64,000 nucleotides of DNA from Chloroflexota bacterium (GTDB lineage: Bacteria > Chloroflexota > Dormibacteria > Dormibacterales > Dormibacteraceae): positions 1 to 64,000 of the forward strand of contig VBEG01000029.1 in assembly GCA_005882115.1 (NCBI GenBank), read 5' to 3'. Shown in pieces: positions 1,664-23,257 of the stretch. Position 1 is the stretch's first letter. Each line of letters opens with the position of its first letter. The notes beneath the pieces were generated by a model that was not told where the DNA came from, ran no database searches, and was given only the letters and a program-made list of their open reading frames with translations. Position numbers and translations under genes: made by a program.

Positions 1664-2960
1664 TCGAGACGACGACGGCAGCATGGACGCACCGAGGGCG
1701 CATCGCGACAAGCGCCGGGTGATGCTGACGCAGCTACTGCGCAGCCCGGTCCTCAACCCGGCAGGAACGGAGGTCGGCCGGGTCGAAGACTTCATCGTCA
1801 AGCTCTCGGACGGCGCGTATCCGCCGGTGACCGGGCTCAAGGTGCGAGTCGGCGCGCAAGACGTGTTCATCGGCAAAGGCCTGATCGACTCACTCGAGCC
1901 CGGCGGTGTGCGACTCAACACGCACACGATCCGCACCGAGGCCTTCCAGCGCCGTCCCGGTGAGGTCTTGCTTGCCACCGACGTGCTTGGCCGGCATCTC
2001 GTCGATGTGGTCAAAGGCCGGATCGTCCAGGCCCACGACCTGGTCCTGTCGCCGAGCGATGACGGTTGGTACCTCTCCGGAATCGACCGCAGCCCGCAGG
2101 CTATGCTCCGCCGGCTGCTGCCGCGACGCGGACGCCCGGACCTGCGCCGCCACGCCATCCTCGACTGGAAGGACATCCAGCCATTCGTAGGCCAGGTGCC
2201 GACCGCCAAGCTTTTGATGCCGCTCCAGCGCCTGCGCCGGCTGCATCCGGCCCAGATCGCCGACATCATCGAGGGCGCCTCACACGAGGAGGGACAGGAG
2301 ATCATCGAGGCGGTCGAGAGCGACCCCGCGCTCACGGCCGACATCTTCGAAGAGCTGGATGCCGAGCACCAGGTCGAGTTCCTGAACTCGAAATCCAACG
2401 AAGAGGCGGCACGCATCCTCGAGCGGATGGCGCCCGACGACGCCGCGGACCTGCTCGGCGAGCTCGACCAGGAAAGGCGCAAACCGGTCTTCGAGATGAT
2501 GTCGACCAGCCAACAGCTCAAGCTGCGCAAGCTGCTCCAGTACCACCCGACGACCGCGGGCGGAATGATGAGCCCCGATTACGTGTGGGTCGTTCGCGGA
2601 GCTACCGTCGACATGGCCCTCGAAGCCGTACGCACGGACGACAAGACGCCGCACCAGCTGCTGGCGACGGTCTTCATCACCGAGCAGGACGGTAGATACG
2701 TCGGAAGCATCGGCCTCGTCGAGCTCCTTCGCAGCGAGCACACGCGCAAGCTCGACGAGCTCGAGCTCACCCGGGTGTCGGTGCACGGCAACGCGGATTT
2801 CGCCGACGTGGCGCTGATGATGGCCGACTACAACCTCACCGCGCTCGGCGTGGTCGACGCGGCCGGAAACCTGATCGGCGCGATCTCCTCCGACGATGTC
2901 ATTGCGGAGTTGATCCCGGACCAGTGGCGCGACCGCGCCGAAGCAAGCACGGGCGTTTAG
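1656..2960 (+). CDS. PRC-barrel / MgtE-N / CBS domain protein
   Basis: A soluble 434-residue protein with three parts: an N-terminal PRC-barrel-like region (about residues 25-170, containing LNPAGTEVGRVEDF and TDVLGRHLVDVV), an MgtE intracellular N domain (about 195-300, helical repeats such as RMAPDDAADLLGELD), and a CBS pair (about 310-425, ending GAISSDDVIAELIP). In the MgtE channel the N and CBS domains sense cytoplasmic Mg2+ and gate the pore. Here they stand alone, with no MgtE membrane domain, six bases upstream of an Nramp-related transporter. The likely role is to sense Mg2+ or a nucleotide and control that transporter; this is inference from context. Confidence 0.85.
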   Translation: MSDRDDDGSMDAPRAHRDKRRVMLTQLLRSPVLNPAGTEVGRVEDFIVKLSDGAYPPVTGLKVRVGAQDVFIGKGLIDSLEPGGVRLNTHTIRTEAFQRRPGEVLLATDVLGRHLVDVVKGRIVQAHDLVLSPSDDGWYLSGIDRSPQAMLRRLLPRRGRPDLRRHAILDWKDIQPFVGQVPTAKLLMPLQRLRRLHPAQIADIIEGASHEEGQEIIEAVESDPALTADIFEELDAEHQVEFLNSKSNEEAARILERMAPDDAADLLGELDQERRKPVFEMMSTSQQLKLRKLLQYHPTTAGGMMSPDYVWVVRGATVDMALEAVRTDDKTPHQLLATVFITEQDGRYVGSIGLVELLRSEHTRKLDELELTRVSVHGNADFADVALMMADYNLTALGVVDAAGNLIGAISSDDVIAELIPDQWRDRAEASTGV

Positions 2961-2966
2961 ACCCTC

Positions 2967-4613
2967 ATGGGCGAGCGCGAGCCAAACCGCAAGGACTCGC
3001 GCTTGAAACCAACGTCAGCCCTTCTCGACGAGCTGAACCAGGGCGACATCCAGGGCGCGTTCGGCACCATCCGCGTCAGCGACGTCACGCCGCGCCGGAC
3101 CTGGCGGCGCCGCCTCCTCACGCTCGCCGCGATCGTCGGTCCGGGGCTCATCGTCATGGTCGGCGACAACGACGCCGGCGGCGTCTCCACGTACGCCCAG
3201 GCCGGCCAGGACTTCGGCTACTCGCTGCTCTGGACGCTGGTCCTGCTGATTCCGGTTTTGATCGTCAACCAGGAGATGGTCGTCCGGCTGGGCGCGGTGA
3301 CCGGCGTCGGCTACGCGCGGCTCATCAGCGAGCGCTTCGGCCGGTTCTGGGGAGTGTACTCGGTCGCGGGCATATTCCTTCTGAACTTTCTGACCATCAG
3401 CACGGAGTTCATGGGCATCAGCCTCGCCGGCCAGTACTTCGGCCTGCATCCCGTGATCGTCGTCCCGGTCGCGGCCGCGATTCTGATAGGCATCACGATC
3501 AGCGGCAACTTCCGCCGCTGGGAGCGCGCGATGTTCGTCTTCCTGTTTGCCAGCCTTCTCGTCCTGCCGCTGGTCCTTCTCAGCCATCCCGATCCCGGCG
3601 CCGCGCTGAAGGGGTTCGTCATTCCTGGCGTCGACGGTGGTCTCACGTCCAACTCGGCACTGCTGATCGTGGCCGTGATCGGCACGACCGTCGCGCCCTG
3701 GCAGCTCTTCTTCCAGCAGTCGAACGTCATCGACAAGCGCATCACGCCGCGCTGGCTCGAGTACGAGAAAGCGGACACGGTGATCGGCGCCTTCGTCGTC
3801 GTGATCGGCGCGGCGGCGATCATGATGGCGACCGCATCCGCGTTTTCGGGCACGGCCGAGTTCGGTCACTACCAGGACGCCCTGCACGTCGCGCGCGGCC
3901 TGCACATGCACATCTCGCCCGCGGCGGGCGCGATCTTCGCGCTGCTGCTCTTCGACGCATCGATCGTCGGCGCGTCAGCGGTGACGCTGGCGACGTCGTA
4001 TGCATTCGGTGACGTCTTCGGCCTCCGCCACTCGCTGCACCGCGGCGTGCGCGAGGCCAAGCTCTTCTACTCCTCGTACACGGCGATGGTCGCGGTCGCG
4101 GCCGCCATCGTCCTCATCCCGTACGCGCCGTTGGGGCTCATCACCACCGCGGTCCAAGCTCTCGCAGGCATCATGCTTCCGAGTGCAACCGTGTTCGCCG
4201 TCCTGCTGTGCAACGACCGCCAGGTGCTCGGCCCCTGGGTGAACAAGCCCTGGCTGAATACGGTCGCCGGAGTCATCGTCGGGGCGATGCTCGTGCTGTC
4301 ACTGATCCTGGTCGTCTCGACTGTGATTCCGTCAATCGACGTCACCATGCTGCTCATCGTCCTCGGTTCCGCGGCGGCTCTCATCCTGGCGGCGGGGAGC
4401 GCCTGGAGCTGGCTCATCTCGCGTGGCCGGCCCCGCGAGCCCGAGATCTCACGCCGGGAGCGCGAGAACTGGCGCATGCCCGCCCTGGCTCTCCTGGAAC
4501 GTCCGACGTGGTCGCTTGCCCGCCGCGCGGCGATCGGGGCACTGAGCGGTTACCTCGTGCTCTCGATCGTGCTCCTCGCGGTCAAGGCGGTCCAGCTGGC
4601 GGTCCACAGGTAG
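2967..4613 (+). CDS. Nramp-related divalent metal (probably Mg2+) transporter
   Basis: A 548-residue integral membrane protein with an 11-helix Nramp core. The TM1 motif, normally DPGN, reads DAGG at residues 69-72, and the TM6 motif, normally MPH, reads APW at 243-245. Loss of the transition-metal-selective methionine (to Ala) and of the TM1 asparagine (to Gly) is the pattern described for Nramp-related magnesium transporters. The gene directly follows a protein made of MgtE's Mg2+-sensing domains, which supports Mg2+ as substrate. The ATG at 2967 leaves a 6-base gap to the previous stop. Family is secure; substrate is inferred. Confidence 0.85.
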   Translation: MGEREPNRKDSRLKPTSALLDELNQGDIQGAFGTIRVSDVTPRRTWRRRLLTLAAIVGPGLIVMVGDNDAGGVSTYAQAGQDFGYSLLWTLVLLIPVLIVNQEMVVRLGAVTGVGYARLISERFGRFWGVYSVAGIFLLNFLTISTEFMGISLAGQYFGLHPVIVVPVAAAILIGITISGNFRRWERAMFVFLFASLLVLPLVLLSHPDPGAALKGFVIPGVDGGLTSNSALLIVAVIGTTVAPWQLFFQQSNVIDKRITPRWLEYEKADTVIGAFVVVIGAAAIMMATASAFSGTAEFGHYQDALHVARGLHMHISPAAGAIFALLLFDASIVGASAVTLATSYAFGDVFGLRHSLHRGVREAKLFYSSYTAMVAVAAAIVLIPYAPLGLITTAVQALAGIMLPSATVFAVLLCNDRQVLGPWVNKPWLNTVAGVIVGAMLVLSLILVVSTVIPSIDVTMLLIVLGSAAALILAAGSAWSWLISRGRPREPEISRRERENWRMPALALLERPTWSLARRAAIGALSGYLVLSIVLLAVKAVQLAVHR

Positions 4614-5740: not shown

Positions 5741-6852
5741 TCTCGCGCTTCGTCCTTGGCGCTGCGCTTGCCCTGCTGATGCTGGTCTGCGGTCCGCTGA
5801 CCTTCGTCTATCTCGGGACCAAGACATCTAAGATTTCGGTGCCGCCCGCAAAACCGACCTCCGCGTCGCCGCGGGCGCAGGCGCTGACCCTTCCGGGCAC
5901 GCTTTACCTCGCCCAGTCCGGAGCGATCTACAGCCTCGCCGCGGGGCGCTTCCACCAGCTCACGCCCGAGGCGGGGTGGACGCAACCGTCCCTGTCATCG
6001 GACGGCAGCTCGATCATCGCGGTCAAGCAGGCGGCGCTGTACTCGGACGTCTACGTCCTCAACCGGTTCGGCACGGTGGTGCGCAAGGTGACGAGCAACG
6101 CGGCGCCGCCGCGGCTTGCCTACGACACAGGCCAGAACCATTGGTCGTTCTATCCGCGCCTCAGCGCCGACGGCAAGACGCTGTGGATGGCGTACGACAA
6201 GCCGAAGTTCGACTACGACGTGGTGCTGTCGATCTGGGCGATGCCATTCGGGGGCACGATCACGCAGGGCAAGCTGTGGACCAACGCCGCGGACTACACC
6301 GGCGGCGACGTTCAGCCGGTCCCGGTCTCGGGCGGGGTCATCTACACCAAGTACGATTACGGGCCCGACGAGAAGCTGGTCGGCAGGCTGTGGTTTACCA
6401 ACCGCGCCTACGCTCCGGGCAAGGCGCTGACCACTCCGGGGGAAGACTGCCGCAACCCGGCGGTCTCGCCGGATGGAACCCAGATCGCGATGATCTGCAC
6501 TTACGAGAAGCAGCTGTCCTACCTGACCGTGGCCTCGTGGAACGGTTCGACACTGGGCGCCCGCAAGAACATCATCACCAATCAGCTGGTCGCGCAGCCG
6601 ACCTGGGCACCGGACGGATCGGGGATCGCGTACCTCGCGCCGGGTGTGGCCGCGGGGCCGTTTCAGCTGTGGTGGCTGCCCCGAGCGGCCTACGCGCCGG
6701 TTCCGACTCCGGCGCCCACGCCGACCCCGGGCGGCCCGCACAACGGTCCGCTCCCGAGTCCCTCGGCCGCGCCCGCCGTCGTGATCAGACCGATCCAAAT
6801 GACGACAAACAACGGCTTCGACGCGACCTCGCCGCCGGCCTGGCGAGGCTAA
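5737..6852 (+). CDS. Membrane-anchored PD40/TolB-like beta-propeller protein
   Basis: 371 residues. The N-terminal hydrophobic segment (residues 4-27) is a signal peptide or anchor. The rest shows propeller blades with PD40-type motifs: QPSLSSDGSSI, YPRLSADGKTLWMAYD, NPAVSPDGTQIAMIC and QPTWAPDGSGIAYLAPG. A Pro-rich tail of about 30 residues (PTPAPTPTPGG) near residues 325-345 resembles wall-spanning linkers. It is translationally coupled to the LCP gene, so it probably acts outside the cell in wall assembly or signalling. No catalytic residues are recognisable. Confidence 0.75.
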   Translation: MISRFVLGAALALLMLVCGPLTFVYLGTKTSKISVPPAKPTSASPRAQALTLPGTLYLAQSGAIYSLAAGRFHQLTPEAGWTQPSLSSDGSSIIAVKQAALYSDVYVLNRFGTVVRKVTSNAAPPRLAYDTGQNHWSFYPRLSADGKTLWMAYDKPKFDYDVVLSIWAMPFGGTITQGKLWTNAADYTGGDVQPVPVSGGVIYTKYDYGPDEKLVGRLWFTNRAYAPGKALTTPGEDCRNPAVSPDGTQIAMICTYEKQLSYLTVASWNGSTLGARKNIITNQLVAQPTWAPDGSGIAYLAPGVAAGPFQLWWLPRAAYAPVPTPAPTPTPGGPHNGPLPSPSAAPAVVIRPIQMTTNNGFDATSPPAWRG

Positions 6853-6864
6853 GCAAGTCTGGTC

Positions 6865-6920
6865 AGCCCCATCCCCGCCTTCGGCGGGTACTTCCTCATG
6901 AATGAGGAAGAAGAGGGGCT
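6865..6920. terminator. Three-stem bidirectional terminator candidate
   Basis: Between two convergent genes an outer stem AGCCCC (6865-6870) / GGGGCT (6915-6920) encloses two perfect hairpins: CCCGCC-TTC-GGCGGG at 6874-6888 and CTTCCTCAT-GA-ATGAGGAAG at 6891-6910. The outer stem touches the stop codon of the reverse-strand gene. No U-tract is visible, so intrinsic termination is inferred from position and structure. Confidence 0.5.
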
Positions 6921-7645
6921 CAGCAGCCGGGCCCATTCCCGAGCACCGGCTCCGCTCCGGCCGCCTGCGCCTGCGCGGCCGAGATGTAGTGCTCCACCAC
7001 CATCTGCGCCAGCACCTGGGCGCGTCTGGCCCGAGCTGCGTCCGGGTTCACCGTCGGGTCGTAGACCGACGGCGCCTGCGTCACGCCGGCCAGGAGCGCG
7101 TACTGCCCGAGGGTCAATCTTTCTAGAGGCGCGCGAAAGTACGCACACGCCGCCTCGGTGACCCCGTACCGGCCGAACCCGGTCGTGATCTCGCTCAAGT
7201 AGTCGGCCAGGATCTGCCTCTTGTTGAGGATGCGCTCCACTTTCAGCGCCAGGACCAGGTCCTGGATTTTGTTGTAGCCGCGGTCGGAACCCCCGAGGTA
7301 GACGTCCTTGACCAGCTGCTCCGTGATCGTCGAGCCCCCCTGGCATAGACAGAGGTTGCTCACGTCGTAGAGCGCCGCGCGGGCGAGGCCGATGGAATCG
7401 ATCCCGTGGTGCGCGTAGAAGCGCTCGTCCTCGATCGCGACCACGGCTTCGGCAAGCTGACGCGGCACCTGGTTTTCGCCCAGCACGTCCACGCCGTGGG
7501 AGCGGGCCAGGGCCTCGACCCGAGCCTGGACGTCATCTCCGCTCGGGGTCCAGATCCAGAGCGTGGCGGCGCTGGGCGCGAGCAGAGCGACGACCACCGG
7601 GACGGTCAGCGTCAGCCGGCGCAAGGGCGCCGGCACCCTCCTCAT
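6920..7645 (-). CDS. Monofunctional peptidoglycan glycosyltransferase (GT51)
   Basis: 241 residues: an N-terminal membrane anchor (about residues 10-32) followed only by a GT51 transglycosylase domain. GT51 motifs are visible: AIEDERFYAHHGID (motif 1, catalytic Glu), GGSTITEQLVKD (motif 2) and KVERILNKRQILADYLSE (motif 3/4). No transpeptidase domain follows, so this is the size of a monofunctional MtgA-type enzyme rather than a class A PBP. It polymerises lipid II at the outer membrane face. A Cys pair (LCLCQGG) just before motif 2 is unusual. Confidence 0.88.
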   Translation of the reverse strand: MRRVPAPLRRLTLTVPVVVALLAPSAATLWIWTPSGDDVQARVEALARSHGVDVLGENQVPRQLAEAVVAIEDERFYAHHGIDSIGLARAALYDVSNLCLCQGGSTITEQLVKDVYLGGSDRGYNKIQDLVLALKVERILNKRQILADYLSEITTGFGRYGVTEAACAYFRAPLERLTLGQYALLAGVTQAPSVYDPTVNPDAARARRAQVLAQMVVEHYISAAQAQAAGAEPVLGNGPGC

Positions 7646-7739
7646 CCCTCTTCGCCCACGCTGGGTTCGAACGAGCCTCCCAATTCAGCCGTTACGCGGT
7701 TACCGCTTGAGAGCCCGCGATTCCATGTGAGAATTGCGC

Positions 7740-8420
7740 ATGCCCATCAAGTGGAAGGTCGCCCTCGTGGAGGACGACCGGCGCCTCGCGCGGGCGGTCG
7801 CCACCGGGCTCGGTGAGGAAGGCTACACAGTCCGTGCGGTCGAGTCGGCTGGCCGGGGGTTGGAGCTCGTTAGGGAATGGAACCCCGACGTCGTGCTCCT
7901 CGACCTGATGCTCCCCGACAACGACGGTCCAGAGCTGTTCGAGGCCTTCCGGGCCGAGACGGACGCGGCTCTCGTCGGCATCAGCGCCCGCTCGTCGGTC
8001 AGCGACCGGATCGCGGGCCTCAAGCTTGGCGCCGACGACTACGTCTCCAAGCCTTTCGCCCTGGAAGAGCTGATGGCGCGGGTCGAGGCGGTCATCCGCC
8101 GCCACCGGGGCAAGGGGGGCGCGCGGTTGGTCTCGAGTGACGTGGTCGTGGACCTGAGCGACGGCAGAGCAACGCGCGCCGGGCGCCAGCTCGGCCTGAC
8201 CGGCATCGAGTTCCGCATCCTCGCTGCCCTCATGCGCAGCAGCGGCCAGCTGGTCACGTACGCGCAGCTGGCGGAGGCGGTCTGGGCGGTCACGACCGGC
8301 CCGGAGTCAAACTCCCTCGAGGTCCACGTGTCGAGGATCCGGCAGAAGCTCGAGCAAGATGGTGCTTCGAGGTTGATTCACACGGTTCGCGGTCTCGGTT
8401 ACAGATTCAGTCCGGATTAG
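7740..8420 (+). CDS. OmpR-family response regulator
   Basis: 226 residues: a receiver domain (residues 6-120) with acidic pocket ED-D at 11-13, phospho-acceptor Asp55 in VVLLDLMLPD, Lys104 in SKPF, then a winged-helix DNA-binding domain ending VHVSRIRQKLEQDG and IHTVRGLGYRF. The ATG at 7740 is preferred over a TTG two codons upstream. It precedes a small secreted protein gene and a histidine kinase in the same direction with gaps of 14 and 5 bases, so the three form one operon and the kinase is its likely partner. Confidence 0.93.
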   Translation: MPIKWKVALVEDDRRLARAVATGLGEEGYTVRAVESAGRGLELVREWNPDVVLLDLMLPDNDGPELFEAFRAETDAALVGISARSSVSDRIAGLKLGADDYVSKPFALEELMARVEAVIRRHRGKGGARLVSSDVVVDLSDGRATRAGRQLGLTGIEFRILAALMRSSGQLVTYAQLAEAVWAVTTGPESNSLEVHVSRIRQKLEQDGASRLIHTVRGLGYRFSPD

Positions 8421-8434
8421 GGGGCAACAGGAAC

Positions 8435-8818
8435 ATGAAGGCGAGGAGCGTGGTGGGCGGCGTGCTGGCGGCGGGGGTGATGGTGATCGGGGGCGCCGGC
8501 TCGGCCTCGGCCAACATCGCGTGGTGCCTGTATGATCCGCCCGTCCTGGTACAGACTCCGGGCGGCTCAAACCTCACCGTGAACAGCAGCGTCAGCGTGC
8601 CCGCGTCGCAGGCCAGGTACATAAACGCCGTGGAGGTTCAGGCAGGGACAGCGCCCGATGGCAGGGGCGGAACCCTGATCACGATCCAAGTCGCCGTGCC
8701 CTCGAGCATCACCACTGCCAACGTCACCGCCACGGTGAAGAAATTCAAGGTGAGCACCTCGGCCACGGTCGCGGGCGGCGGCGCCACGACTCTCTACCTG
8801 GACGTGCCCACCAGCTGA
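8435..8818 (+). CDS. Small secreted protein between regulator and kinase genes
   Basis: 127 residues with a clear signal peptide: MKARS followed by a hydrophobic core and cleavage near GSASA-NIAW (residue ~25). The mature ~100 residues are Thr/Val/Ser-rich, predicted beta-sandwich-like, with one Cys near the N terminus and no known catalytic motif. The stop is 5 bases before the histidine kinase start. Its position inside a two-component operon suggests a ligand, cofactor or output of that system; this is inference. I do not recognise a named family. Confidence 0.7.
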   Translation: MKARSVVGGVLAAGVMVIGGAGSASANIAWCLYDPPVLVQTPGGSNLTVNSSVSVPASQARYINAVEVQAGTAPDGRGGTLITIQVAVPSSITTANVTATVKKFKVSTSATVAGGGATTLYLDVPTS

Positions 8819-13850: not shown

Positions 13851-15143
13851 CTAGACCGCGACCGTCTCCGGTTCCCGGCTCGCCCAGGCTTCCTCCATCG
13901 CCTCGGTGTCTCGCTTGACCGTTCTCAGTCCCGTGGCGGCGGCGAGCGCGGCCAGGATCAGGAGCGTCGGCGAGGTGATGAGAAGTGCGGCCTGAAGGTT
14001 GTGTCCCAGGTGGTCGGAGATGACGCCAACGTCGTAGGTCGAGTGCGAGTCGCCGAACACGTGGGCGATGAAGAGGAGCAGCGTCACCGCACTGGCGCGC
14101 AGTCCCGGCGAGACGACGTTTTGCGCCACCGCCGTGAAGGGGCCGGCGTAGAGGTAGAGGCAGATCACGGTCAGCAGGAAGACGGGAACGAAGACGGGGA
14201 TTGGACCGACGTTCAGTGGGCTGAGGATCGCGATCGTGATCAGGACGGCACCGGCGAGGAAGCCGACGATGCCGGTCTCTAGGTGGGCTTTGGGCGATTC
14301 GAGGGCGCGGCGGTCGGAGAGCCAGCCCCCGGCGAGCGTGCCGATGAGACCGCCGACCACGATCACGACCCCTGCCAGGAGGCCGGCTCTGCCTGAGCTC
14401 ATGTCGAACCGCCTCTGGAGGACCGTCGGAAGCCAGAATGCGTTGGAGGCGAGGACGAAGAAAAGGAGGGTCTGGGCGATGATCGTCGCCCTCAGGGTCG
14501 GGATCTTCAGCAGGTCGATGAACTTCTTAAGGCTCGCGTCAGCGGTCTTGGCGAGCGCGGGGCCGGTTTTCTCCACCGCGCCTCGCAGCGGCTCGCGCAT
14601 CTGGAAGGCGAGGATGGCGAGGAGCAATCCAGGCACCGCTGCGAAGAAGAATGCCGCGCGCCAGCCTAGCGTCTCGGCGATGTAGCCGCCGCCGGCAAAG
14701 CCGAGGGCGATGCCGATGGTGCTGCCGGCGCCCCAAACCGACATGACCCGGCCTCGCTGCTCCTTGGGGAAGTAGTCGCTGAGGAGGCTGGTACCGGCGG
14801 GGTAGTAGCTTGCCTCGCCGATACCCACGACCGCCCGGCTGAGGAAGAGCTGCGCGTAGGTGCGCGCGAAGCCGGTGAAGAGGGTGGCGATGCTCCAGAT
14901 CGTGACGCCGACGCCGATCACGGTCTTGCGGACGCCGCGGTCGCCCCAGTAGCCGAAGGGGAGGGCGGCGATGGCGTAGACGAGCAGGAAGGCGGTGCCT
15001 AGGAGGCCGAACTCGGAGTCGGAGATGTGGAGCTCTTTCTCGATCAGGGGGCCGGCGCTGGCGGCGACCCAGCGGTCCATGTAGTTGAGGAGGTTGATGC
15101 CGACCATGAGGGCGAGCACGTAGCGCGCATAGCCTCCGACCAC
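13851..15143 (-). CDS. MFS transporter, Spinster-like
   Basis: 430 residues with twelve predicted membrane helices. Helix 1 carries NLLNYMDRW, and loop 2-3 carries GYWGDRGVRKTVI, the MFS motif A. GEASYYPAGTSLLSDYFPKEQRGR between helices 4 and 5 is characteristic of the Spinster-like branch. Substrate is unknown: relatives move lipids, sugars or organic anions. It converges on the wall hydrolase gene with a 3-base gap and lies beside the tRNA-Tyr gene, so it is the last core gene before the insertion region. Confidence 0.88.
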   Translation of the reverse strand: MVGGYARYVLALMVGINLLNYMDRWVAASAGPLIEKELHISDSEFGLLGTAFLLVYAIAALPFGYWGDRGVRKTVIGVGVTIWSIATLFTGFARTYAQLFLSRAVVGIGEASYYPAGTSLLSDYFPKEQRGRVMSVWGAGSTIGIALGFAGGGYIAETLGWRAAFFFAAVPGLLLAILAFQMREPLRGAVEKTGPALAKTADASLKKFIDLLKIPTLRATIIAQTLLFFVLASNAFWLPTVLQRRFDMSSGRAGLLAGVVIVVGGLIGTLAGGWLSDRRALESPKAHLETGIVGFLAGAVLITIAILSPLNVGPIPVFVPVFLLTVICLYLYAGPFTAVAQNVVSPGLRASAVTLLLFIAHVFGDSHSTYDVGVISDHLGHNLQAALLITSPTLLILAALAAATGLRTVKRDTEAMEEAWASREPETVAV

Positions 15144-15225: not shown

Positions 15226-15305
15226 GGGTCGGCTGGGCATTGGCGAGCTCAAGTGGCTGTAAACCACCCGCGAAAGCTGTGGGGGTTCAAATCCCTCCCG
15301 GCCCA
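15226..15305 (+). tRNA. tRNA-Tyr (GTA)
   Basis: An 80-nt cloverleaf can be folded: acceptor GGGTCGG/CCGGCCC with one G-U pair, D stem GGGC/GCTC with GG in the loop, anticodon arm GTGG-CTGTAAA-CCAC with anticodon GTA at 15259-15261, a long class II variable arm as expected for tRNA-Tyr, T arm GGGGG-TTCAAAT-CCCTC, discriminator A at 15305. CCA is not encoded (CTCC follows). Its 3' end is repeated four more times downstream, making it the apparent attachment site of the cassette array. Confidence 0.9.
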
Positions 15306-15309
15306 CTCC
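15293..15309 (+). repeat. tRNA 3' end acting as attachment core (copy 0)
   Basis: CCCTCCCGGCCCACTCC spans the 3' side of the T stem, the acceptor stem and four bases beyond. The same core occurs at 17400, 19190, 19648 and 21600, always preceded by a different, conserved left arm. It is the natural attL-type copy because it alone belongs to a full tRNA. Confidence 0.7.
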
Positions 15310-15417
15310 CCAACATCTGGTGCACGTGGGCTGAAAGAGCCACAGCATCGCTGGTTGAGCTGTCGGGGCCCCAAGCTTTCGGATCGCCACACCGCGAGCA
15401 AAGCAGGGCCAGTCAAC

Positions 15418-15567
15418 CTTCGCCCCTACCTGACACCCAAGTACGTCGGCATGCGGCGCGACCTTGAGCGCTTCCTCCACGACTACAGCTTCGACCGCGC
15501 CCACAACGGCATCCGGACGCTCGGCCGGACACCGGCGGAGACCTTGAAAGCCGCGGTTAGGCTATGA
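15418..15567 (+). pseudogene. Transposase/integrase-core C-terminal fragment
   Basis: The reading frame ending at 15567 contains LERFLHDYSFDRAHNGIRTLGRTPAETL, the C-terminal end of a DDE integrase-core transposase of the IS481/IS3 type (the conserved N-x-x-RPHxG...GRTPAE pattern). The catalytic domain upstream is missing; the frame runs into unrelated sequence and the tRNA. This is a relic just downstream of the tRNA attachment core, in the first cassette. Confidence 0.65.
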
Positions 15568-15589
15568 GCCCGTCACCCCTATGGCGTCG

Positions 15590-15800
15590 CCACATCTCGT
15601 GGACAGGACATCCCAGCCCGCGAAGGGTCCAAGCCGTCGCCGTCATCGCAAATCTCAAATTCAAGTCGGGCGTCTTTCCCGCCAAACGTGCAGTGTCGCC
15701 CGGGATGCCCGCGCATGTTTAGCCAGATTCTGCAACGTTTCGGCGCAGCAGAAGTAGACGACCGCCTCGACATCGTGAGGGTACCGTTCGGCCGCGCACC
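15590..15800 (-). pseudogene. Histidine kinase HATPase fragment, frameshifted
   Basis: Reverse-strand translation gives AERYPHDVEAVVYFCCAETL then QNLAKHARASRATLHVW, and, in another frame, DARLEFEICDDGDGLDPSRAGM. Together these are the N box and G1 box of a NarL-associated sensor kinase ATPase domain. A stop and frame change separate the halves near 15680, and upstream coding is cut by a stop near 15805. The phospho-acceptor region and C terminus are absent. It is a decayed fragment, consistent with repeated insertion beside the tRNA. Confidence 0.6.
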
Positions 15801-15913
15801 GAACTTAGACCGGAAGCGTGAGAGCGTAAGCGCAACTCCTCCCCAGGTCGTGCAACGCGGCGGCGTTTTGATCCACCTGGCGTGATTGATTCATCCAATG
15901 GAGAGGCGAAGGC

Positions 15914-16390
15914 TCACACCGCCTTTGGCATGGCGCGCGGCGCATTCTTGAATTTCAGCCCTTCTACCTGCATTAAACGGAGAACCACCCAGAACATGAA
16001 CGGCAAGTCTCCACGAGCGGGCTTGGTGACAAGAGCCGGGTCCACGAGCTCGTAGACTCGCCCCCTCGTTTCCACCGCGCAGCGGCCGGCCGCGAGGACA
16101 TTCTTGACCCACTCCGTATCCCTCCCGTATGTGAGACCGAACAGAAAGCCATCGCGGATCCTGAATACGTTGACCGGCGTGCGATGCACTTTCCCGGATT
16201 TGCGGCCAACGTGAATGACGTATCCAAACGTAGGCATCTTCAAGCCATTCGCCAGTCGGCCGATCGTGCGGTTCGTCACCACGCGATTGAAGCGCGCGAC
16301 CTGTTTCGGCCAGAGCCGAACTGCAATCACGAGCACAAGGGGCAGAAGCAAGAAGCTTGAGGCGATGCTCAGCCACAGATTCATGATCAA
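15914..16390 (-). CDS. Deazaflavin (F420)-dependent nitroreductase family protein
   Basis: 158 residues: an N-terminal hydrophobic segment (residues 4-25), then a split-barrel Ddn-like domain. Typical motifs are VIHVGRKSGKVHRTPVNVF, FGLTYGRDTEWVKNVLAAG and a conserved Glu/His-rich C-terminal half. Family members use F420H2 to reduce quinones, nitro compounds or other electrophiles; the anchor suggests membrane attachment. The gene overlaps a small membrane protein gene by 4 bases and is divergent from a TetR regulator, so it is likely a regulated detoxification gene. Confidence 0.8.
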   Translation of the reverse strand: MIMNLWLSIASSFLLLPLVLVIAVRLWPKQVARFNRVVTNRTIGRLANGLKMPTFGYVIHVGRKSGKVHRTPVNVFRIRDGFLFGLTYGRDTEWVKNVLAAGRCAVETRGRVYELVDPALVTKPARGDLPFMFWVVLRLMQVEGLKFKNAPRAMPKAV

Positions 16391-16536
16391 GACCTCTCAT
16401 TCAGTGAACCGGTAACGACGGCAGGGCTTGGCGTCTGGAAGCCGTCTGAGATGGCGACCACGAAGCCAACCGCGGTTCCGAGCGCAAGCAACAAGATCGC
16501 GATCTGACCGGCTGCAGATGGGGCCTCTTTTTCCAT
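16387..16536 (-). CDS. Small single-pass membrane protein
   Basis: 49 residues from the ATG at 16536: MEKEAPSAAG, a hydrophobic stretch IAILLLALGTAVGFVVAI, and a short polar tail. Its stop overlaps the start of the nitroreductase-like gene (16387-16390), so the two are co-translated. It faces the TetR gene across a 120-base shared promoter region. No family is recognised; a membrane partner or anchor for the reductase is possible. Confidence 0.5.
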   Translation of the reverse strand: MEKEAPSAAGQIAILLLALGTAVGFVVAISDGFQTPSPAVVTGSLNERS

Positions 16537-16619
16537 CTCGCACGTATCGGACGGCCACACCGAGCACGCAGCGTCGATTTCATCGCTTGTTGAATTATAT
16601 GCCGCCACGGCCTGAGATG

Positions 16620-16633
16620 TCAACGGGCGTTGA
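16620..16633. promoter_or_regulatory. Palindromic operator, TetR-type
   Basis: TCAACG-GG-CGTTGA is a perfect 6+2+6 inverted repeat 23 bases before the TetR start and 84 bases before the divergent operon. Its position fits autorepression plus control of the reductase operon. Confidence 0.5.
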
Positions 16634-16655
16634 AATTTCGGGTAGACTGAGCGGC

Positions 16656-17321
16656 ATGGTCGTCGCGAGAAGTCGCAGGAAGGTCCGTGTGGGGCGAACA
16701 CCAGGTTCGCCGGCGAACCGGGAAGCAATCCTGTCTGCCGCCAAGACTTATTTCGAGCGACACGGCTACGAAGGGAGCACGATCCGTGGCATCGCGGACG
16801 CCGCGGGTGTGGATCCCGCGCTGCTCTACCACTACTTCGGTTCAAAGGATCAGCTCTTGGTGGCTGCCCTCCAGCTACCGGTCAACCCACGCGATGTCGT
16901 GCCGGAGCTGCTGGCGGGGGGCCTGGACGGCATCGGAGAACGATTGCTGAGACGTCTCCTCGGCGTCTGGGGAAGGGATTGGGCTGCGGGTGGGCCGATG
17001 ATTGGATTGATCCGGGCATCGGCCACGCACGACGAGGCGGCTCGCCTGGCTCGGGAATTCTTTTCGAGAGAAGTGATGGGTCGGGTCGCCGAATCGCTTG
17101 ACATGCCGCAACCGCGACTCCGCGCTGCCCTCGTCGGCTCTCAACTCATGGGCCTCGCGATGGCCCGATTCGTCATAAAGCTCGAACCGATCGCAAGCGC
17201 CGATCCAGAGCTGCTGATTGCCTGCTACGCACCGACGATTCAGCGTTATCTGACTGGCCCGCTGCCGAGTGACGATCGCCCTTTGCCCCCAACAAGAATC
17301 GGCAAGGGCGGGCATCAATGA
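16656..17321 (+). CDS. TetR-family transcriptional regulator
   Basis: 221 residues. The N-terminal HTH is clear: NREAILSAAKTYFERHGYEG, STIRGIADAAGVDPALLYHY and FGSKDQLLVAAL (about residues 22-70). The C-terminal ligand domain resembles TetR_C members with PRLRAALVGSQLMGLAMARF. The ATG at 16656 gives a normal TetR length; the frame is open far upstream but that part overlaps the divergent gene. It likely represses the nitroreductase-like operon and itself through the palindrome at 16620. Confidence 0.9.
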   Translation: MVVARSRRKVRVGRTPGSPANREAILSAAKTYFERHGYEGSTIRGIADAAGVDPALLYHYFGSKDQLLVAALQLPVNPRDVVPELLAGGLDGIGERLLRRLLGVWGRDWAAGGPMIGLIRASATHDEAARLAREFFSREVMGRVAESLDMPQPRLRAALVGSQLMGLAMARFVIKLEPIASADPELLIACYAPTIQRYLTGPLPSDDRPLPPTRIGKGGHQ

Positions 17322-17376
17322 GTCGAGCGCAAATCCTCCAGCACGCGCTCAGTCATTGGAAAGGTGACCATGAAGC

Positions 17377-17413
17377 GTTTAGCAACTGTTGGCCGGGAGC
17401 CCTCCCGGCACAC
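17377..17413 (+). repeat. tRNA-derived cassette boundary, copy 1
   Basis: GTTTAGCAACTGTTGGCCGG, then GAGC, then the core CCCTCCCGGCACACC (two core mismatches). GCCGGGAG and CTCCCGGC form a perfect inverted repeat around two bases. It separates the TetR gene from the epoxide hydrolase gene. Confidence 0.65.
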
Positions 17414-17472
17414 CATCCCGAATTTCTCCTCGCTTAAGCGAGGGTTTTCAACCGTCCGCCGAGGATGTCGGG

Positions 17473-18621
17473 TCACCCCAACCTACGAAAGAAAGCACGC
17501 ACGTCGCCGACCAGCGCGTCGGGCCGCTCCATCGCTGCGAAATGTCCGCCTCTATCGAACTCCGACCAGTGCACGATGTTGTTTGACCGTTCGGCAAAGC
17601 GTCGGATGGGAGGCGCGATCTCTCGCGGGAACACCGCCACGCCAGTGGGCACCATGGACGTCTCGACCTTGCCCCAGGAGCTGCCGGAGCGGCCGAACTC
17701 GAAGTAGAGCCGTGCTGACGAGTTGGCGGTGCGCGTGAACCAGTAGACGGAGATGTTGGTCAGCATCTGGTCGCGGTCGATCGGTTGGTCACTCCACTCG
17801 TGGAATTTTTCCGCAATCCAGGCCAGCAGGCCGGCGGGCGAGTCCGTCAGTCCGTAAGACAGCGTCTGGGGCCGACTGCCCTGGATCATGAAGTAACCGG
17901 AGCCCTGCTGGCGGAAGCGGTTTGCCGCCTCGATGTAGCCCTTTTCCTTTTCGGTGAGGAGTTTCATATCCTCGGGATCGCCGGAGGACGGGGTGGCCAG
18001 CGTGTTCAGGTGCAGTCCGATGACGTGCTCCGGCGCGCTCAAGCCAAGCTGCCGAGAGATGGCTGAACCCCAGTCGCCACCCTGAGCTCCGTACCGGTCG
18101 TAGCCGAGGCGCTGCATGAGCTGCGCAAACGCGGCGGCGATGCGCTTGACGTCCCACCCTTTCTCTTTGGTAGGTCCCGAGAACCCGAATCCAGGAATCG
18201 ATGGTGCGACGACATGGAAGGCGTCCGACGGGTCGTCGCCATGGGCACCTGGGTCCACGAGCCGACCGATGATCTTCATGAACTCCACCACCGAACCGGG
18301 CCAGCCGTGCGTCAGCAGTAGCGGAATGGCATTTGGTTCTCTGGATCGGACATGCAGAAAATGGACGTTCTGGCCATCCAAGATGGTGGTGTACTGGGGA
18401 AAGTCGTTCAGTCGGGCCTCGTTCTCACGCCAGTCGTATCCGTCGGCCCAATACGTCACGAGGTCGCGTACAAGGCTCAGAGGGATTCCGTACTCCCAGC
18501 CTGCGCCAGGCAGCTCGTCAGGCCACCTGGTCTTGCGCAACCGCTCGCGAAGGTCATCCACCTCGGACTGCGCAACGTCGATGCGAAAGGGTCTGAGGTC
18601 CGTGAGCGCGTCAGTCTCCAA
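17473..18621 (-). CDS. Epoxide hydrolase (EHN-type alpha/beta hydrolase)
   Basis: 382 residues from a TTG at 18621 that has an AAGGGG ribosome site; an upstream ATG would place the operators inside the gene. The N-terminal EHN domain starts LRPFRIDVAQSEVDDLRERL and includes the WPDELPGAGWEYG region. Catalytic features: oxyanion motif HGWPGS (~105), nucleophile Asp183 in GGDWGS, and C-terminal His near 360 in GGHFAAMERPDAL. It opens epoxides to diols. It is divergent from a MarR-type gene and flanked by tRNA-derived repeats, forming a self-contained module. Confidence 0.9.
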   Translation of the reverse strand: METDALTDLRPFRIDVAQSEVDDLRERLRKTRWPDELPGAGWEYGIPLSLVRDLVTYWADGYDWRENEARLNDFPQYTTILDGQNVHFLHVRSREPNAIPLLLTHGWPGSVVEFMKIIGRLVDPGAHGDDPSDAFHVVAPSIPGFGFSGPTKEKGWDVKRIAAAFAQLMQRLGYDRYGAQGGDWGSAISRQLGLSAPEHVIGLHLNTLATPSSGDPEDMKLLTEKEKGYIEAANRFRQQGSGYFMIQGSRPQTLSYGLTDSPAGLLAWIAEKFHEWSDQPIDRDQMLTNISVYWFTRTANSSARLYFEFGRSGSSWGKVETSMVPTGVAVFPREIAPPIRRFAERSNNIVHWSEFDRGGHFAAMERPDALVGDVRAFFRRLG

Positions 18622-18649
18622 TTCTTGGCCCCCCTTGGTCTCGACGATA

Positions 18650-18697
18650 TGACAGAATATTGTCATAGTTAGGTTAGCAAAACGACAGAATGCTGTC
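18650..18697. promoter_or_regulatory. Tandem MarR-type operators
   Basis: Two related palindromes, TGACAGAATATTGTCA (18650-18665) and GACAGAATGCTGTC (18684-18697), are centred 33 bp apart between the epoxide hydrolase and MarR genes. Shared half-site GACAGAAT supports one regulator binding both. Confidence 0.6.
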
Positions 18698-18739
18698 AAG
18701 TCGGGTCGGCGCTCTCAAGCTGGTGAGATCCTGACGTCG

Positions 18740-19150
18740 ATGATCATCCCCGTGATCCAGCTCGAGGCGCACTTCAGCCGCGCAGGAGAGTCGATCGCGG
18801 CGTCGGGAGGCCAGACTCTGGCCCGCTGGCTCGCGCTGGAGATGGTATTTGACAAGCCGGCCACCGTCGCGCAGATTGCTCGACGGTTGGGCCTCACCCG
18901 GCAGAGCGTCCAGCGGGTGGCTGACCTGCTGGCGCACGATCGCCTGACCGGATACGCATCCAATCCGGCTCACCAGCGATCGAAGCTGGTTCAGATCACA
19001 CCACGAGGCCTAAGGGCCCTCAGGGCGATTCGAAACGCCCAGCGCGTCTGGGCGAACAGCGTGGGCGAAGAGATCGGGGAGGCAAACCTGCGACATGCGA
19101 GTCGCGTGGTCGATCAGCTGACTAGGGTCCTGACGAGGCATCGCACATAG
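18740..19150 (+). CDS. MarR-family transcriptional regulator
   Basis: 136 residues with a winged helix: KPATVAQIARRLGLTRQSVQRVADLLAHDRLT (recognition helix, about residues 40-70), wing NPAHQRSKLVQITPRG, and a helical dimerisation end. It is shorter than usual by a few residues at the N terminus. Divergent from the epoxide hydrolase, with two palindromes between, it probably controls that gene and itself in response to an aromatic or epoxide ligand. Confidence 0.85.
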   Translation: MIIPVIQLEAHFSRAGESIAASGGQTLARWLALEMVFDKPATVAQIARRLGLTRQSVQRVADLLAHDRLTGYASNPAHQRSKLVQITPRGLRALRAIRNAQRVWANSVGEEIGEANLRHASRVVDQLTRVLTRHRT

Positions 19151-19156
19151 GCCGAA

Positions 19157-19207
19157 GCTTGTTAACTGCGGGCCGGGAGCCCTCCCGGCCCACTCCCCAA
19201 GATCTGG
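19157..19207 (+). repeat. tRNA-derived cassette boundary, copy 2
   Basis: CTTGTTAACTGCGGGCCGGG, AGC, then core CCCTCCCGGCCCACTCC identical to the tRNA copy. Homology to the tRNA flank continues beyond the core: CCAA-ATCTGG matches 15310-15319 except for one base (19201). This is the copy most like the tRNA locus. Confidence 0.75.
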
Positions 19208-19335
19208 GGCTCAGGCTGCATCGCAGCGCGAAATATAGCGGCGCTGATTGCCCCTTTGGTCGAAACCACAAAGATCGCACTCGGACCATCGACCACATCG
19301 GAACACTAAGGGCGCCAGTTGACGTTGTGTGAGCT

Positions 19336-19554
19336 GTGAACCGCAGGTCGGCTGGATTCTGGGTTTGGCCTGTCGGCGCCACGCTCGGCGTGGCTGGTGC
19401 AGTCGGACTGGAAATCACGTTTGTCGCATCCGGTGATTTGCCGGCTGTTCCAGCCCTCCTCGTCACGTTTGGGCTTCCGGGCGTTGGCGGTCTCGCCCTC
19501 GGTGTAAGCAACGGCTGTGCACGAAGGACCTACCTCCTGCTTATGCAAAGATGA
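19336..19554 (+). CDS. Small two-helix membrane protein
   Basis: 72 residues from a GTG: two hydrophobic stretches (FWVWPVGATLGVAGAVGLEI and LPAVPALLVTFGLPGVGGLAL) with a short loop, then a Cys/Arg tail. It is the only possible gene in the 465-base module between boundary copies 2 and 3. No family recognised; GC and codon use look ordinary, but the evidence for expression is weak. Confidence 0.4.
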   Translation: MNRRSAGFWVWPVGATLGVAGAVGLEITFVASGDLPAVPALLVTFGLPGVGGLALGVSNGCARRTYLLLMQR

Positions 19555-19624
19555 CACCATGCGTGCTGTATGGCTGTCGGGTTCGGGCGCACCCCCGAAA
19601 TGCGGGTCGGTGGACGCCGCGAAC

Positions 19625-19661
19625 CTTTAGTAACTGTTGGCCGGGAGCCCTCCCGCCCCAC
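19625..19661 (+). repeat. tRNA-derived cassette boundary, copy 3
   Basis: CTTTAGTAACTGTTGGCCGG, GAGC, then core CCTCCCGCCCCACC (one internal mismatch and a shortened end). The left arm is almost identical to copies 1 and 4. Confidence 0.7.
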
Positions 19662-19837
19662 CAGTTTCCTGACTCAAGACATCGTGGACACCCGGCTTCG
19701 GCAATGGGCGGAGTCGGCTCAGGTACGGACCAGAAGCGAATGTCGCGGCAGCGCTGTACGAATGAGTCAACCGCTTGGGTGCAAAAGAGCCGCGCCCTGT
19801 TTGGACGCGGCTCCAACGCCACAGTGGGCAGCGTCTG

Positions 19838-21298
19838 TTAAATCGTCGTTGCGAATACGTCGGTGCGGTTGGCCGGGTTGCCGGTATTCGTCTGAACGTA
19901 GAACGGCAAGAAGGTGTTGAAGTCGCTCCCTACTGAAGTCAACCCCTCGTAATCGCCCAGAAAGTAACCTCGCGAGATCGGGGCAGTCTCTATATCAAAG
20001 CTGCCAGCCACATGGGTCTCCGACCAATCGGCGGTGTTGGTGCACGCGCTGGCGGACTTGCAGCGGATTATCCAGTAATCGGTCGGCACTCCCGCGGCCG
20101 GCGTGTTGTTCCGAAAGTCGTAGTAGGCCACGCCAACGGTGCTGTTAGCTGCCACGTACACCGATGGGGTGAATGCTGCCGCGTTGTTTGTCGTTTGATT
20201 GATCTTTATCGGTGCCGACCAGGTAAGCCCGCCATCAGTCGACCGGGAGAGGGCGACATCATCGTGGGCGCCGTTGCTGAAGCGGCCATCGGCCCAAACC
20301 ACGTACAGGGTGCCAGTGCTGCGGTCGACAGCAATGTCGGGAAGGCCCGCGCCGGTGCGAACCGGAGCTCCGGTGTCCGGATCAGTGACCGCCACCGACA
20401 TGTCCTTGGAGATGATGATGGGATCTGACCAGGTCAGGCCCTTGTCCGTCGAGCGGATCACCGCCTCGAAGTACTGATCGGAAGGCTGGATTCCAGATCC
20501 TTTGCCGAGATTGAAGACATCCACTAGGGTGCCGTTGGGCAGGACCACGATCTGGTTTCCAATCGCAAACTGGTTGCTGTTACGCGCGAAGAGGTTGCGA
20601 GGTGCTTCCCAACTGGTGCCACCGTTTGTCGTCCTGGTGAAGTAGATATCTCCCCGGAACGCAAACGAATGCAGGGCATTGAAATCCGCGTTCTCACTGG
20701 GGAAGCGACTGCGATCCCATACGGCGTAAACATTGGAGGCATTGGTCGGATCGGCGGTAATCGTTTCTTTATCGTTGAAGTGGAAAACTGACGAATCACG
20801 AATCAGCGTTGTCGGCTCGCCCCAGGTGTCGCCCCCATCCGTCGATTTGCTCACAAGGATCCCGGAGGTCACCAAATCCGCGCTGGCCGAGAGGCTGATT
20901 TGGTAGACGTCTCCATTGGATGCGAACGACACCCAGGGGTCAGAGGCTCGATCGTAGTTGCCGCCGTTGCCGGCAGTCCCTCCCGAGCAGGTGCTGAAAT
21001 GCGCCCAGTTCTCTCTCCAGGTTGCTCCGCCATCGTGCGAGACGCCGGCGATCAGGCCGTGCGCTCCGCCATTCGACCAGCGATCCTGCTGGAAGACACC
21101 GACGATGTTGTGTGCGTTTGTTGGATTGACTGCGACTCGGGGCTCGACCTCAGCATTGACGTAAACAGTGCCGGGCCCACCTATAGCGCAACCCGCGAAC
21201 GAGCTTGGCCCGGAGACCAACGTCGTCGACGCACTCGCAGACTGGTTGAGCCCGAGCGTCAAGGCTCCCGCGACAGCAACAACAGATATGACCTTCAT
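19838..21298 (-). CDS. Secreted Asp-box (BNR/sialidase-like) propeller protein
   Basis: 486 residues from an ATG at 21298 with a GAGGAGG ribosome site. A signal peptide (cleaved near SASAS, residue ~25) is followed by a six-bladed propeller with at least five Asp-box motifs: SHDGGATW, STDGGDTW, TTNGGTSW, STDKGLTW and STDGGLTW. The fold is that of exo-alpha-sialidases and photosystem-assembly-type propellers; the sialidase Arg triad and FRIP motif are not evident, so glycosidase activity is unproven. It fills the fourth module of the tRNA-linked array, and its GC content is visibly lower than its neighbours. Confidence 0.8.
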   Translation of the reverse strand: MKVISVVAVAGALTLGLNQSASASTTLVSGPSSFAGCAIGGPGTVYVNAEVEPRVAVNPTNAHNIVGVFQQDRWSNGGAHGLIAGVSHDGGATWRENWAHFSTCSGGTAGNGGNYDRASDPWVSFASNGDVYQISLSASADLVTSGILVSKSTDGGDTWGEPTTLIRDSSVFHFNDKETITADPTNASNVYAVWDRSRFPSENADFNALHSFAFRGDIYFTRTTNGGTSWEAPRNLFARNSNQFAIGNQIVVLPNGTLVDVFNLGKGSGIQPSDQYFEAVIRSTDKGLTWSDPIIISKDMSVAVTDPDTGAPVRTGAGLPDIAVDRSTGTLYVVWADGRFSNGAHDDVALSRSTDGGLTWSAPIKINQTTNNAAAFTPSVYVAANSTVGVAYYDFRNNTPAAGVPTDYWIIRCKSASACTNTADWSETHVAGSFDIETAPISRGYFLGDYEGLTSVGSDFNTFLPFYVQTNTGNPANRTDVFATTI

Positions 21299-21576
21299 GC
21301 ATGCCTCCTCATCGAGAACACCGGGGGGAGCGACAGAGCCACAACCCGCGTGAGACCACCCCACTCCGCAAGGCCCTCCGTGCGGCCGGTGCAGTCGCCA
21401 ACTAAAGCAGTACTACTGAACGGAATGATTGTCAAATGATCCCGCGTGCGGATACTCGGCGCCATTTGCAGATCACGGTGCGATCCAGACCTCACCGCAT
21501 CTTTCTTCTTCGCCCGGCGCCGTGGCTAGGCCTCGGTCTCCTGAAATGGCTACGGGCGCGGTGCCGGCTCAGGACG

Positions 21577-21616
21577 GTTTAGTAACTGTTGGCCGGGACC
21601 CCTCCCGGCCCACTCC
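21577..21616 (+). repeat. tRNA-derived cassette boundary, copy 4
   Basis: GGTTTAGTAACTGTTGGCCG, GGACC, then core CCTCCCGGCCCACTCC. One base in the inverted repeat differs from the other copies (GGGACC for GGGAGC). It lies in the 320-base gap between the propeller gene and a flavin oxidase, in which nothing else is recognised, and is the last copy in the window. Confidence 0.72.
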
Positions 21617-21685: not shown

Positions 21686-23083
21686 CTATTCCAACAGGGC
21701 TTCCGGCCGGATGTTCTGGTTCAGGTGGAACGTGTTGTCAGGATCGTAAAGGCGCTTGAGGTCGGTCAGCCTCGTGAGCTTGCGCGCGGAATAGGCACGG
21801 CGCACGCCGTCCTGGCCTTCGTCGCCCAGTGCGTTGACGTAGACCCCACTTGCGAACGGCTCGAGCGCCGCTGCGTAGGCCCGCGCAGCGGACACCCGGT
21901 CGCCATCCTCTTTCGGATCCACCCAGTTCGTCCCGCAGCCAAACTCCACGAGCGTTTGGCGGTGGCTAAACGCCGCATCGTCGTCCCCGACATCGCCGAT
22001 CGCGCCGCCGTATGCCTGGAAGCCGCCGTTCGGGATGCGTGACCAGTCGGGGTCGGCCCCGCTCGCCGGTAGGCCGCGCGCCAGGAAGGCGTCGATCGCG
22101 GCGTCGCTGAGCTCGGTCAGGTAGTGACCTTTGGAATAGCGGCGGCGGCCATGGCCGTTCGGGTCGTCGCTCATGCACTGGAGCCCGACGTATGACATCT
22201 CCTGGACGCGCTCGGTTGCGGGCCTGCCGAGCTCGCGAATCGTCGAGAGAAAGCGGAGCCCTTCATTGAGATCGCCCACCCAGACGTAGCCGACGGTGAC
22301 GATGGGTCGGTTCCGCAGACCGGGCGGCGTCGATGGTAGATCTGCGGCCGTCGTGGCGCTTGCCGTGAGGGTTGCCGCCCGGGGTGCGTCGGGCAACAGG
22401 TCACGCCAGCCGCGAAGCGCGTCGCGAGCTTCGGCGGCATCGAAGACGAGGTCCACCACGAGTGCGCGGCCGCCGACTGGGTGGAGGCGAAACTCGAACT
22501 CGGTAACAATGCCGAAGTTCCCCCCTCCTCCACGGAGGCCCCAGAACAGATCGGCGTTCTCCGATTCAGACGCGTGCACGATGCGTCGATCGGCAGTCAC
22601 AACGGTATACGCCTCGACGTTGTCGCAGGACAGACCGAACTGTCGCGCAAGCCACCCCATTCCGCCGCCAAGGGTCAGCCCGCCGACGCCTGTGTGCGAG
22701 ACGTTTCCAGCCGTCGTTGCAAGGCCGTGCTCCTGCGCGGCCTCGTCCAGGTTTCGAAGCAGCGAGCCACCACCGACCCAGGCCTTGCGTCGGACCGGGT
22801 CGATGCGAACCGCGCTCATGGGGGTCAGGTCGATCATGACTCCGCCGTTCGGCACGGAAAGGCCGAGCACGCTGTGGCCGCCGCACTTCACAGCGATCTC
22901 GAGGCCGGCTTCACGGCCGAAACGCACGCCTGAAACCACGTCCTCAGGGGACGCGCAGCGAAGGATGGCGGCCGGGCGCCGGTCGACCATGCCATTCCAC
23001 ACTGCCCGGCTCCGGTCGTATGTCTGGTCGCCAGGCAAGATCAACTCGCCGCCGAACTCGCCGATCCTCGTCGCGGTCCCCAT
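21686..23083 (-). CDS. FAD-linked oxidase, berberine-bridge-enzyme type
   Basis: 465 residues from the ATG at 23083, which has an AGGAGG site. A PCMH-type FAD domain contains CGGHSVLG (His ~70, the usual 8-alpha-histidyl FAD link), GVMIDLTPM and GVGGLTLGGGMGWL. The second covalent site, usually Cys, reads GNVSHTGVGG and lacks it. The BBE tail reads RLYDPDNTFHLNQNI. These enzymes oxidise alcohols, sugars or alkaloids with O2. No signal peptide. Substrate unknown. Confidence 0.88.
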   Translation of the reverse strand: MGTATRIGEFGGELILPGDQTYDRSRAVWNGMVDRRPAAILRCASPEDVVSGVRFGREAGLEIAVKCGGHSVLGLSVPNGGVMIDLTPMSAVRIDPVRRKAWVGGGSLLRNLDEAAQEHGLATTAGNVSHTGVGGLTLGGGMGWLARQFGLSCDNVEAYTVVTADRRIVHASESENADLFWGLRGGGGNFGIVTEFEFRLHPVGGRALVVDLVFDAAEARDALRGWRDLLPDAPRAATLTASATTAADLPSTPPGLRNRPIVTVGYVWVGDLNEGLRFLSTIRELGRPATERVQEMSYVGLQCMSDDPNGHGRRRYSKGHYLTELSDAAIDAFLARGLPASGADPDWSRIPNGGFQAYGGAIGDVGDDDAAFSHRQTLVEFGCGTNWVDPKEDGDRVSAARAYAAALEPFASGVYVNALGDEGQDGVRRAYSARKLTRLTDLKRLYDPDNTFHLNQNIRPEALLE

Positions 23084-23257
23084 CTCCCGCCTCCTTGCTT
23101 CGAAACTCCACCCGCTCATGGATGCGCCACAACTAGTGACTGGGGAGGAGCCCTTGACTAATCGATCGGAAATGCCGCGATAGTCCCGACGACCCGCAAA
23201 GATGCCCGGGTCTTTGGAGTTTCATGTCCTTGCCCGGCCTGGCTTACGATGCGGCCC

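Follow-up and report, generated by a model that had tools for sequence, protein, structure and literature searches.

The DNA directly behind the tRNA-Tyr gene of this Chloroflexota genome is, in all likelihood, a series of small integrase-less islands accreted in tandem, each of which would have integrated site-specifically at the 3' end of the tRNA. The window (the whole stretch of DNA that was analysed, 64,000 nucleotides) is part of contig C119, 75 kb long, in assembly G000, which comprises 3.36 Mb in 147 contigs, is 96.5% complete and is evidently a metagenome assembly (MAG). The host is a soil member of the Chloroflexota, from a largely uncultured group.

Repeats of the tRNA-Tyr 3' end

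The putative integration target, tRNA-Tyr (GTA), was placed by ARAGORN at 15,226–15,306 on the forward strand, as are all repeat copies described here, and an identical tRNA-Tyr is found at the LysM-MFS locus of most congeners. Sequence comparison places an attL at 15,293–15,327, made up of the core CCCTCCCGGCCCACTCC, which is the 3' end of the tRNA, and a right arm, CCAACATCTGGTGC, that resembles the arm after the 19,180 core at 16 of 18 positions. The original prediction that this tRNA end recurs four times downstream was confirmed with ARAGORN and a core search, the copies lying at 17,400, 19,180, 19,648 and 21,600. Arm and core searches delimit the first attR copy as TTTAGCAACTGTTGGCCGGGAG + CCCTCCCGGCACACCA (17,378–17,416), the third as TTTAGTAACTGTTGGCCGGGAG + CCCTCCCGCCCCACCA (19,626–19,664) and the fourth and outermost as TTTAGTAACTGTTGGCCGGGAC + CCCTCCCGGCCCACTCC (21,578–21,616), while the second, CTTGTTAACTGCGGGCCGGGAG + CCCTCCCGGCCCACTCC (19,158–19,196), has an arm identical to that of an attR in the related genome G006. 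The 17-bp core is exact at 15,293, 19,180 and 21,600, and the cores at 17,400 and 19,648 keep 12 of 13 bases and diverge beyond these.

The same left arm had been expected at each copy and not in the tRNA. It is indeed absent from tRNA-Tyr itself, and TTTAGTAACTGTTGGCCGGG occurs at 17,378 (with one mismatch), 19,626 and 21,578, but the copy at 19,163 carries a variant arm, GTTAACTGCGGGCCGGGAG; the arm thus takes the form TTTAGYAACTGTTGGCCGGGAG/C at three copies and CTTGTTAACTGCGGGCCGGGAG at 19,158. None of 100 shuffles reached the observed number of left-arm copies. Rather than being scattered away from the array, the repeat was found nowhere else when the 3.36 Mb of the assembly were searched, and an exact scan of ~85,000 species genomes returned the motif from only three, all of the same family as the window genome, which argues for integration at this site. 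The exact motif was not found in the viral collection. The geometry that had been proposed, one attL at the tRNA and serial attR copies of related elements, is therefore supported.

Arm and core together form an inverted repeat of up to GGCCGGGAG-CC-CTCCCGGCC, and in DNA folding three attR copies gave z values of -2.6 to -3.6, the copy at 19,626 gave -2.0 and the tRNA end gave +1.0. So strong an inverted repeat lends some weight to the view that the copies belong to a family of palindromic repeats or terminators and have nothing to do with integration, yet such an origin is very improbable, given that the right half of the palindrome is the tRNA-Tyr tail, that the copies found all fall within the array, that there is no T-run, and that an identical copy terminates an integrase-bearing element. 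The palindromic arm and core may instead be an end derived from attP, with a pair of sites at which the recombinase would bind.

Judging from the alignments, the crossover would have to fall inside the 14–17 bp common to the tRNA and the copies, because the arm differs from the tRNA upstream of that stretch. A crossover at the anticodon loop was considered, since at the tRNA islands of G104 and G045 the identity block begins there and extends over 59 and 47 bp, and was rejected for Tyr, where the attR copies match only the final 14–17 bp of the tRNA and where a different sublocation is used. The shortness of this block counts against serial integration, as do the different sublocation in G104 and G045 and the lack of a steady rise in core mutations with distance from the tRNA.

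If the array did arise by serial integration, a tyrosine recombinase of the G006 family would recombine the att site of an element (left arm, 14–17 bp of tRNA tail and right arm) with the tRNA. The tail would be supplied by the element, so that the tRNA would stay intact at attL, and the displaced tail would be joined to the left arm of the element to give attR. Each newcomer would enter at the tRNA and push earlier ones outward, with one attR left per event.

Contents of the modules

The copies are spaced at 2.1, 1.78, 0.47 and 1.95 kb, in agreement with the module sizes first given. Module 1 (15,310–17,399; 2.1 kb, G+C 0.61 vs 0.655) pairs an F420H2-dependent quinone reductase/deazaflavin nitroreductase family protein on the reverse strand (15,914–16,390; PF04075 and TIGR00026 above cut-off) with a divergent TetR-family regulator on the forward strand (16,656–17,321; PF00440, PF17920). 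Pfam matches give a similar arrangement in module 2 (17,413–19,179; 1.8 kb), which holds an epoxide hydrolase with EHN and alpha/beta hydrolase domains (17,473–18,699, reverse strand; PF06441, PF00561) and a divergent MarR-family regulator (18,740–19,150, forward strand; PF12802). Module 3 (19,197–19,647; 0.47 kb) contains, from the ORF list, one possible 72-aa ORF (19,336–19,554), for which profile searches returned no family match. Module 4 (19,662–21,599; 1.95 kb, G+C 0.60) encodes a BNR/Asp-box repeat protein (19,838–21,364, reverse strand; PF13088) that is probably secreted, judging by eye from its N-terminus. The right flank carries a FAD-linked oxidase (21,686–23,119, reverse strand), a gene that is also found behind tRNA-Tyr in G003, G007, G008 and G009. 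Within module 1, the translation of 15,400–15,567 resembles a transposase C-terminus by eye, with no match in Pfam.

The modules are lower in G+C (0.60–0.62) than the window mean of 0.655, and modules 1 and 3 have both arm types in common, with similarity confined to their ends and unrelated interiors; both observations support separate integration events. The modules yielded neither an integrase ORF nor a remnant of one, whether among the ORFs, in a remnant search or with Pfam profiles, as had been predicted. The blocks now consist of cargo and att ends, the cargo being one or two genes and, in two blocks, an enzyme paired with a divergent regulator; they would have originated through loss of integration genes. 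With only these parts, they would need an integrase supplied in trans, or would have to excise together with a neighbour, as CIMEs do. The module 2 gene pair has a counterpart with ~70% identical DNA in G005 (G005:C15), with no tRNA within the fetched locus, and the module cargo therefore appears to resemble ordinary chromosomal genes. Other tRNA-linked sites were considered for the cargo and rejected, as these relatives of the module 2 pair are chromosomal.

It is also possible, though unlikely, that the modules never had an integrase and are dedicated non-autonomous cassettes, assembled, excised and integrated in trans by a G006-type integrase, which would act on short palindromic att sites and stack minimal, self-regulated cassettes of one or two genes in a gene-collecting system anchored on tRNA-Tyr in this Chloroflexota family. 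The shared ends and unrelated interiors of modules 1 and 3 fit this reading, as do the compactness of the modules, with their genes within the att borders and two enzyme/regulator pairs, and the finding of integrase traces in none of the four. A decayed full island, however, would look alike, and the 5-kb insert of G008, with its G006-like attL, has the appearance of a deletion derivative. Searches turned up neither module genes at other att sites nor, in the assemblies that hold the array, a matching integrase. Integron cassette arrays are likewise serial small gene units between short palindromic sites, and if the cassette reading were true, the system would be comparable to the integron in outcome while being unrelated in origin. 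The array itself, in contrast to an integron, has no intI or attI, its target is a tRNA tail, and the integrase in the relative is Xer-like.

The integrase-bearing relative

The suggested search for a recombinase with a matching site succeeded in a relative, G006. On a 6.8-kb contig (G006:C212), a complete gene for a tyrosine recombinase (228–1307) starts 118 bp beyond tRNA-Tyr (24–109), further genes come after it, and an attR-type copy with the same arm lies at 6210–6247, 6.1 kb from the tRNA, its 38 bp identical to positions 19,156–19,193 of the window. This combination of tRNA-Tyr, integrase and identical copy supports serial accretion at the tRNA, and the G006 element is the probable autonomous partner of the array, with its site. 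The integrase, of 360 aa, matches PF00589, and when five relatives are aligned it retains the catalytic residues R-K-H-R-H-Y. It is Xer-like, scoring 65.6 bits against the integron integrase model TIGR02249, for which the cut-off is 265 bits, and together with the lack of an integrase in the array this upholds the claim that the system is not integron-like. No relaxase or conjugation gene was recognised among those ORFs of the element that were scanned. Beside the integrase, the region 1369–3110 (L039) matches the PADLOC models RmrT and RmrA and is a candidate anti-phage system.

Integrases 59–63% identical to that of G006 lie directly behind tRNA-Ser, tRNA-SeC and tRNA-Leu, which further supports integration at the tRNA. 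Behind tRNA-Tyr in G042 there is a C-terminally incomplete relative, another in G047 comes after a masked tRNA tail that matches SeC, and tRNA-Ser in G104 has a more distant relative behind it, with an attR. No attR was found for the SeC, Ser(CGA) and one Leu element, which counts against the accretion reading. These comparisons identify the G006 integrase and its relatives as a putative tRNA-targeting integrase family with a predicted Tyr-specific att end; no relatives were found in the viral collection. The tRNA-Ser islands L139 (G104) and L140 (G020) carry integrases of this family, and that of G020 comes after an incomplete tRNA-Ser, as at a tandem junction.

An integrase close to that of G006 was not found in G000 or G003, the assemblies holding the array, and the present-day mobility of the array is therefore doubtful; it may be fossil, or may rely on a helper that arrives from elsewhere. 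Six PF00589 matches are present in G000, the nearest of which, on G000:C18, was rejected as the matching integrase, since it is only 37–40% identical and is closely similar, at its catalytic end, to the integrase of the G045 tRNA-Pro island.

The locus in congeners and known tandem islands

Almost every congener locus examined retains the LysM-MFS-tRNA-Tyr side, while the DNA behind the tRNA varies, a contrast that argues for insertion at the tRNA. The distance from the tRNA to the FAD oxidase is 0.75 kb in G007, 1.5 kb in G009, 5.0 kb in G008 and 6.3 kb in the window, with differing contents. In G008, tRNA-Tyr is followed by a G006-like attL right arm (alignment score 57, null maximum 35), and a 5-kb insert with this attL and an attR-like copy precedes the same FAD oxidase as in the window. 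Of its two larger ORFs, one encodes a LuxR-type ATPase and the other a protein that fits no family; neither is an integrase, and this integrase-less insert also supports the accretion of such islands. The intervening DNA of G009 holds, as read from translations, an SDR-like gene with a MarR-like gene divergent to it; no attR was detected between tRNA and FAD oxidase in G007 or G009. An exact empty site, with tRNA-Tyr joined directly to the FAD flank, was not found among the genomes examined, a point against serial integration.

Several other features were observed behind congener tRNA-Tyr genes. Arm-like sequences without the tRNA-Tyr core lie just behind the tRNA in L100 (G020:C48, ~15107–15130) and L032 (G004), and are possible decayed att remnants. 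Similar IS-like sequences (TGTCTCA-GACAT) lie directly behind it in L019 (G016) and L025 (G000:C123), and a dense array of ~19 tRNA genes, resembling mobile or phage tRNA arrays, lies 5 kb behind it in L034 (G005:C44:27001-47000, 6467–8548).

The array could in principle descend from one or two larger islands, later fragmented by deletions or IS activity, with att sites duplicated by homologous recombination. The ~55-bp strip without an attR between the last copy and the G008-type flank would fit, as would the arm-like remnant without a core in G004, but the arms are unlike between copies (TTTAGYAACTGTT and GTTAACTGCGG) and different DNA follows each copy, as expected of separate insertions. 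This makes fragmentation improbable compared with serial integration.

Variation among strains had also been anticipated, and holds for the distant congeners that differ behind the tRNA. It does not hold for G003, where the array has the same gene order and 99.7% DNA identity to that of the window, with SNPs and a 72-bp length difference; at this identity G003 is uninformative as an independent strain comparison and was rejected as one. A second, orthologous LysM-MFS-tRNA-Tyr locus is present in G000 (G000:C123, near 66.2 kb), its DNA ~73–80% identical to parts of that of G003. As the bin holds two orthologous tRNA-Tyr loci and C119 is 99.7% identical to G003, this contig probably belongs to the G003 species and was binned with G000 by mistake. 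A MAG in which some contigs are probably mis-binned does raise the question of an assembly artefact, but with the array also present in a second assembly, with SNPs and a length difference, this is extremely improbable.

Tycheposons, tRNA-targeted tyrosine-recombinase elements with small cargo, are comparable in this description. It had been stated that no named system of exactly this design was known. This did not stand, as tandem integrase-less islands flanked by att sites have been described (PMC7563491, PMC5704250, PMC3146451). In Dehalococcoides, of the same phylum, ssrA islands lie in tandem behind an RNA gene, with 20-bp repeats of the 3' end of that gene as their boundaries; an integration module is absent from 15 islands, which are proposed to be cis-mobilizable, and present in 16 (PMC3146451). 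As in the window, integrase-less islands are thus stacked at the 3' end of an RNA gene, but the ssrA islands use the serine recombinase DsiB and target tmRNA, with rdhA abundant in the integrase-less ones (PMC3146451), whereas the window target is tRNA-Tyr and the integrase of the relative matches PF00589.

Streptococcal CIMEs are att-flanked, integrase-less tandem units of 1.2–13 kb, with gene-free microCIMEs of 130–220 bp, and the most decayed units lie farthest from the target (PMC7563491, PMC5704250). The window modules are CIME-like in keeping attL and attR and lacking integrase and transfer genes. According to the papers citing Pavlovic 2004 (PMC7563491, PMC5704250), CIMEs derive from conjugative or mobilizable elements, and they are counted beside an ICE or IME; the window array has no known ancestor of that kind and none of its four units contains an integrase, so the array is likened to CIMEs and not assigned to them, ICE/IME ancestry being a CIME feature. 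Islander tRNA islands have the tRNA regenerated at one end, the displaced fragment at the other and a tyrosine integrase; Islander requires each member of a tandem to have an integrase gene, and it lists only 4 tandems with at least three members (PMC4383910). The window array has the intact tRNA and the 3' end fragments in direct orientation, but no integrase inside.

With the ssrA islands and CIMEs described, the accretion design is already known. What the window array adds is a case at tRNA-Tyr of the tyrosine-recombinase type, whose four members are all very small and devoid of an integrase; four in series without an integrase, sizes of 0.47–2.1 kb, regulator/enzyme pairs and a palindromic attR are unusual. 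Tandem island accretion would thereby be documented in a largely uncultured soil group, together with a probable autonomous partner and its site, and with very small regulated enzyme modules at a tRNA-Tyr accretion site. Finders that demand an integrase per member would miss such arrays, and their frequency may therefore be underestimated.
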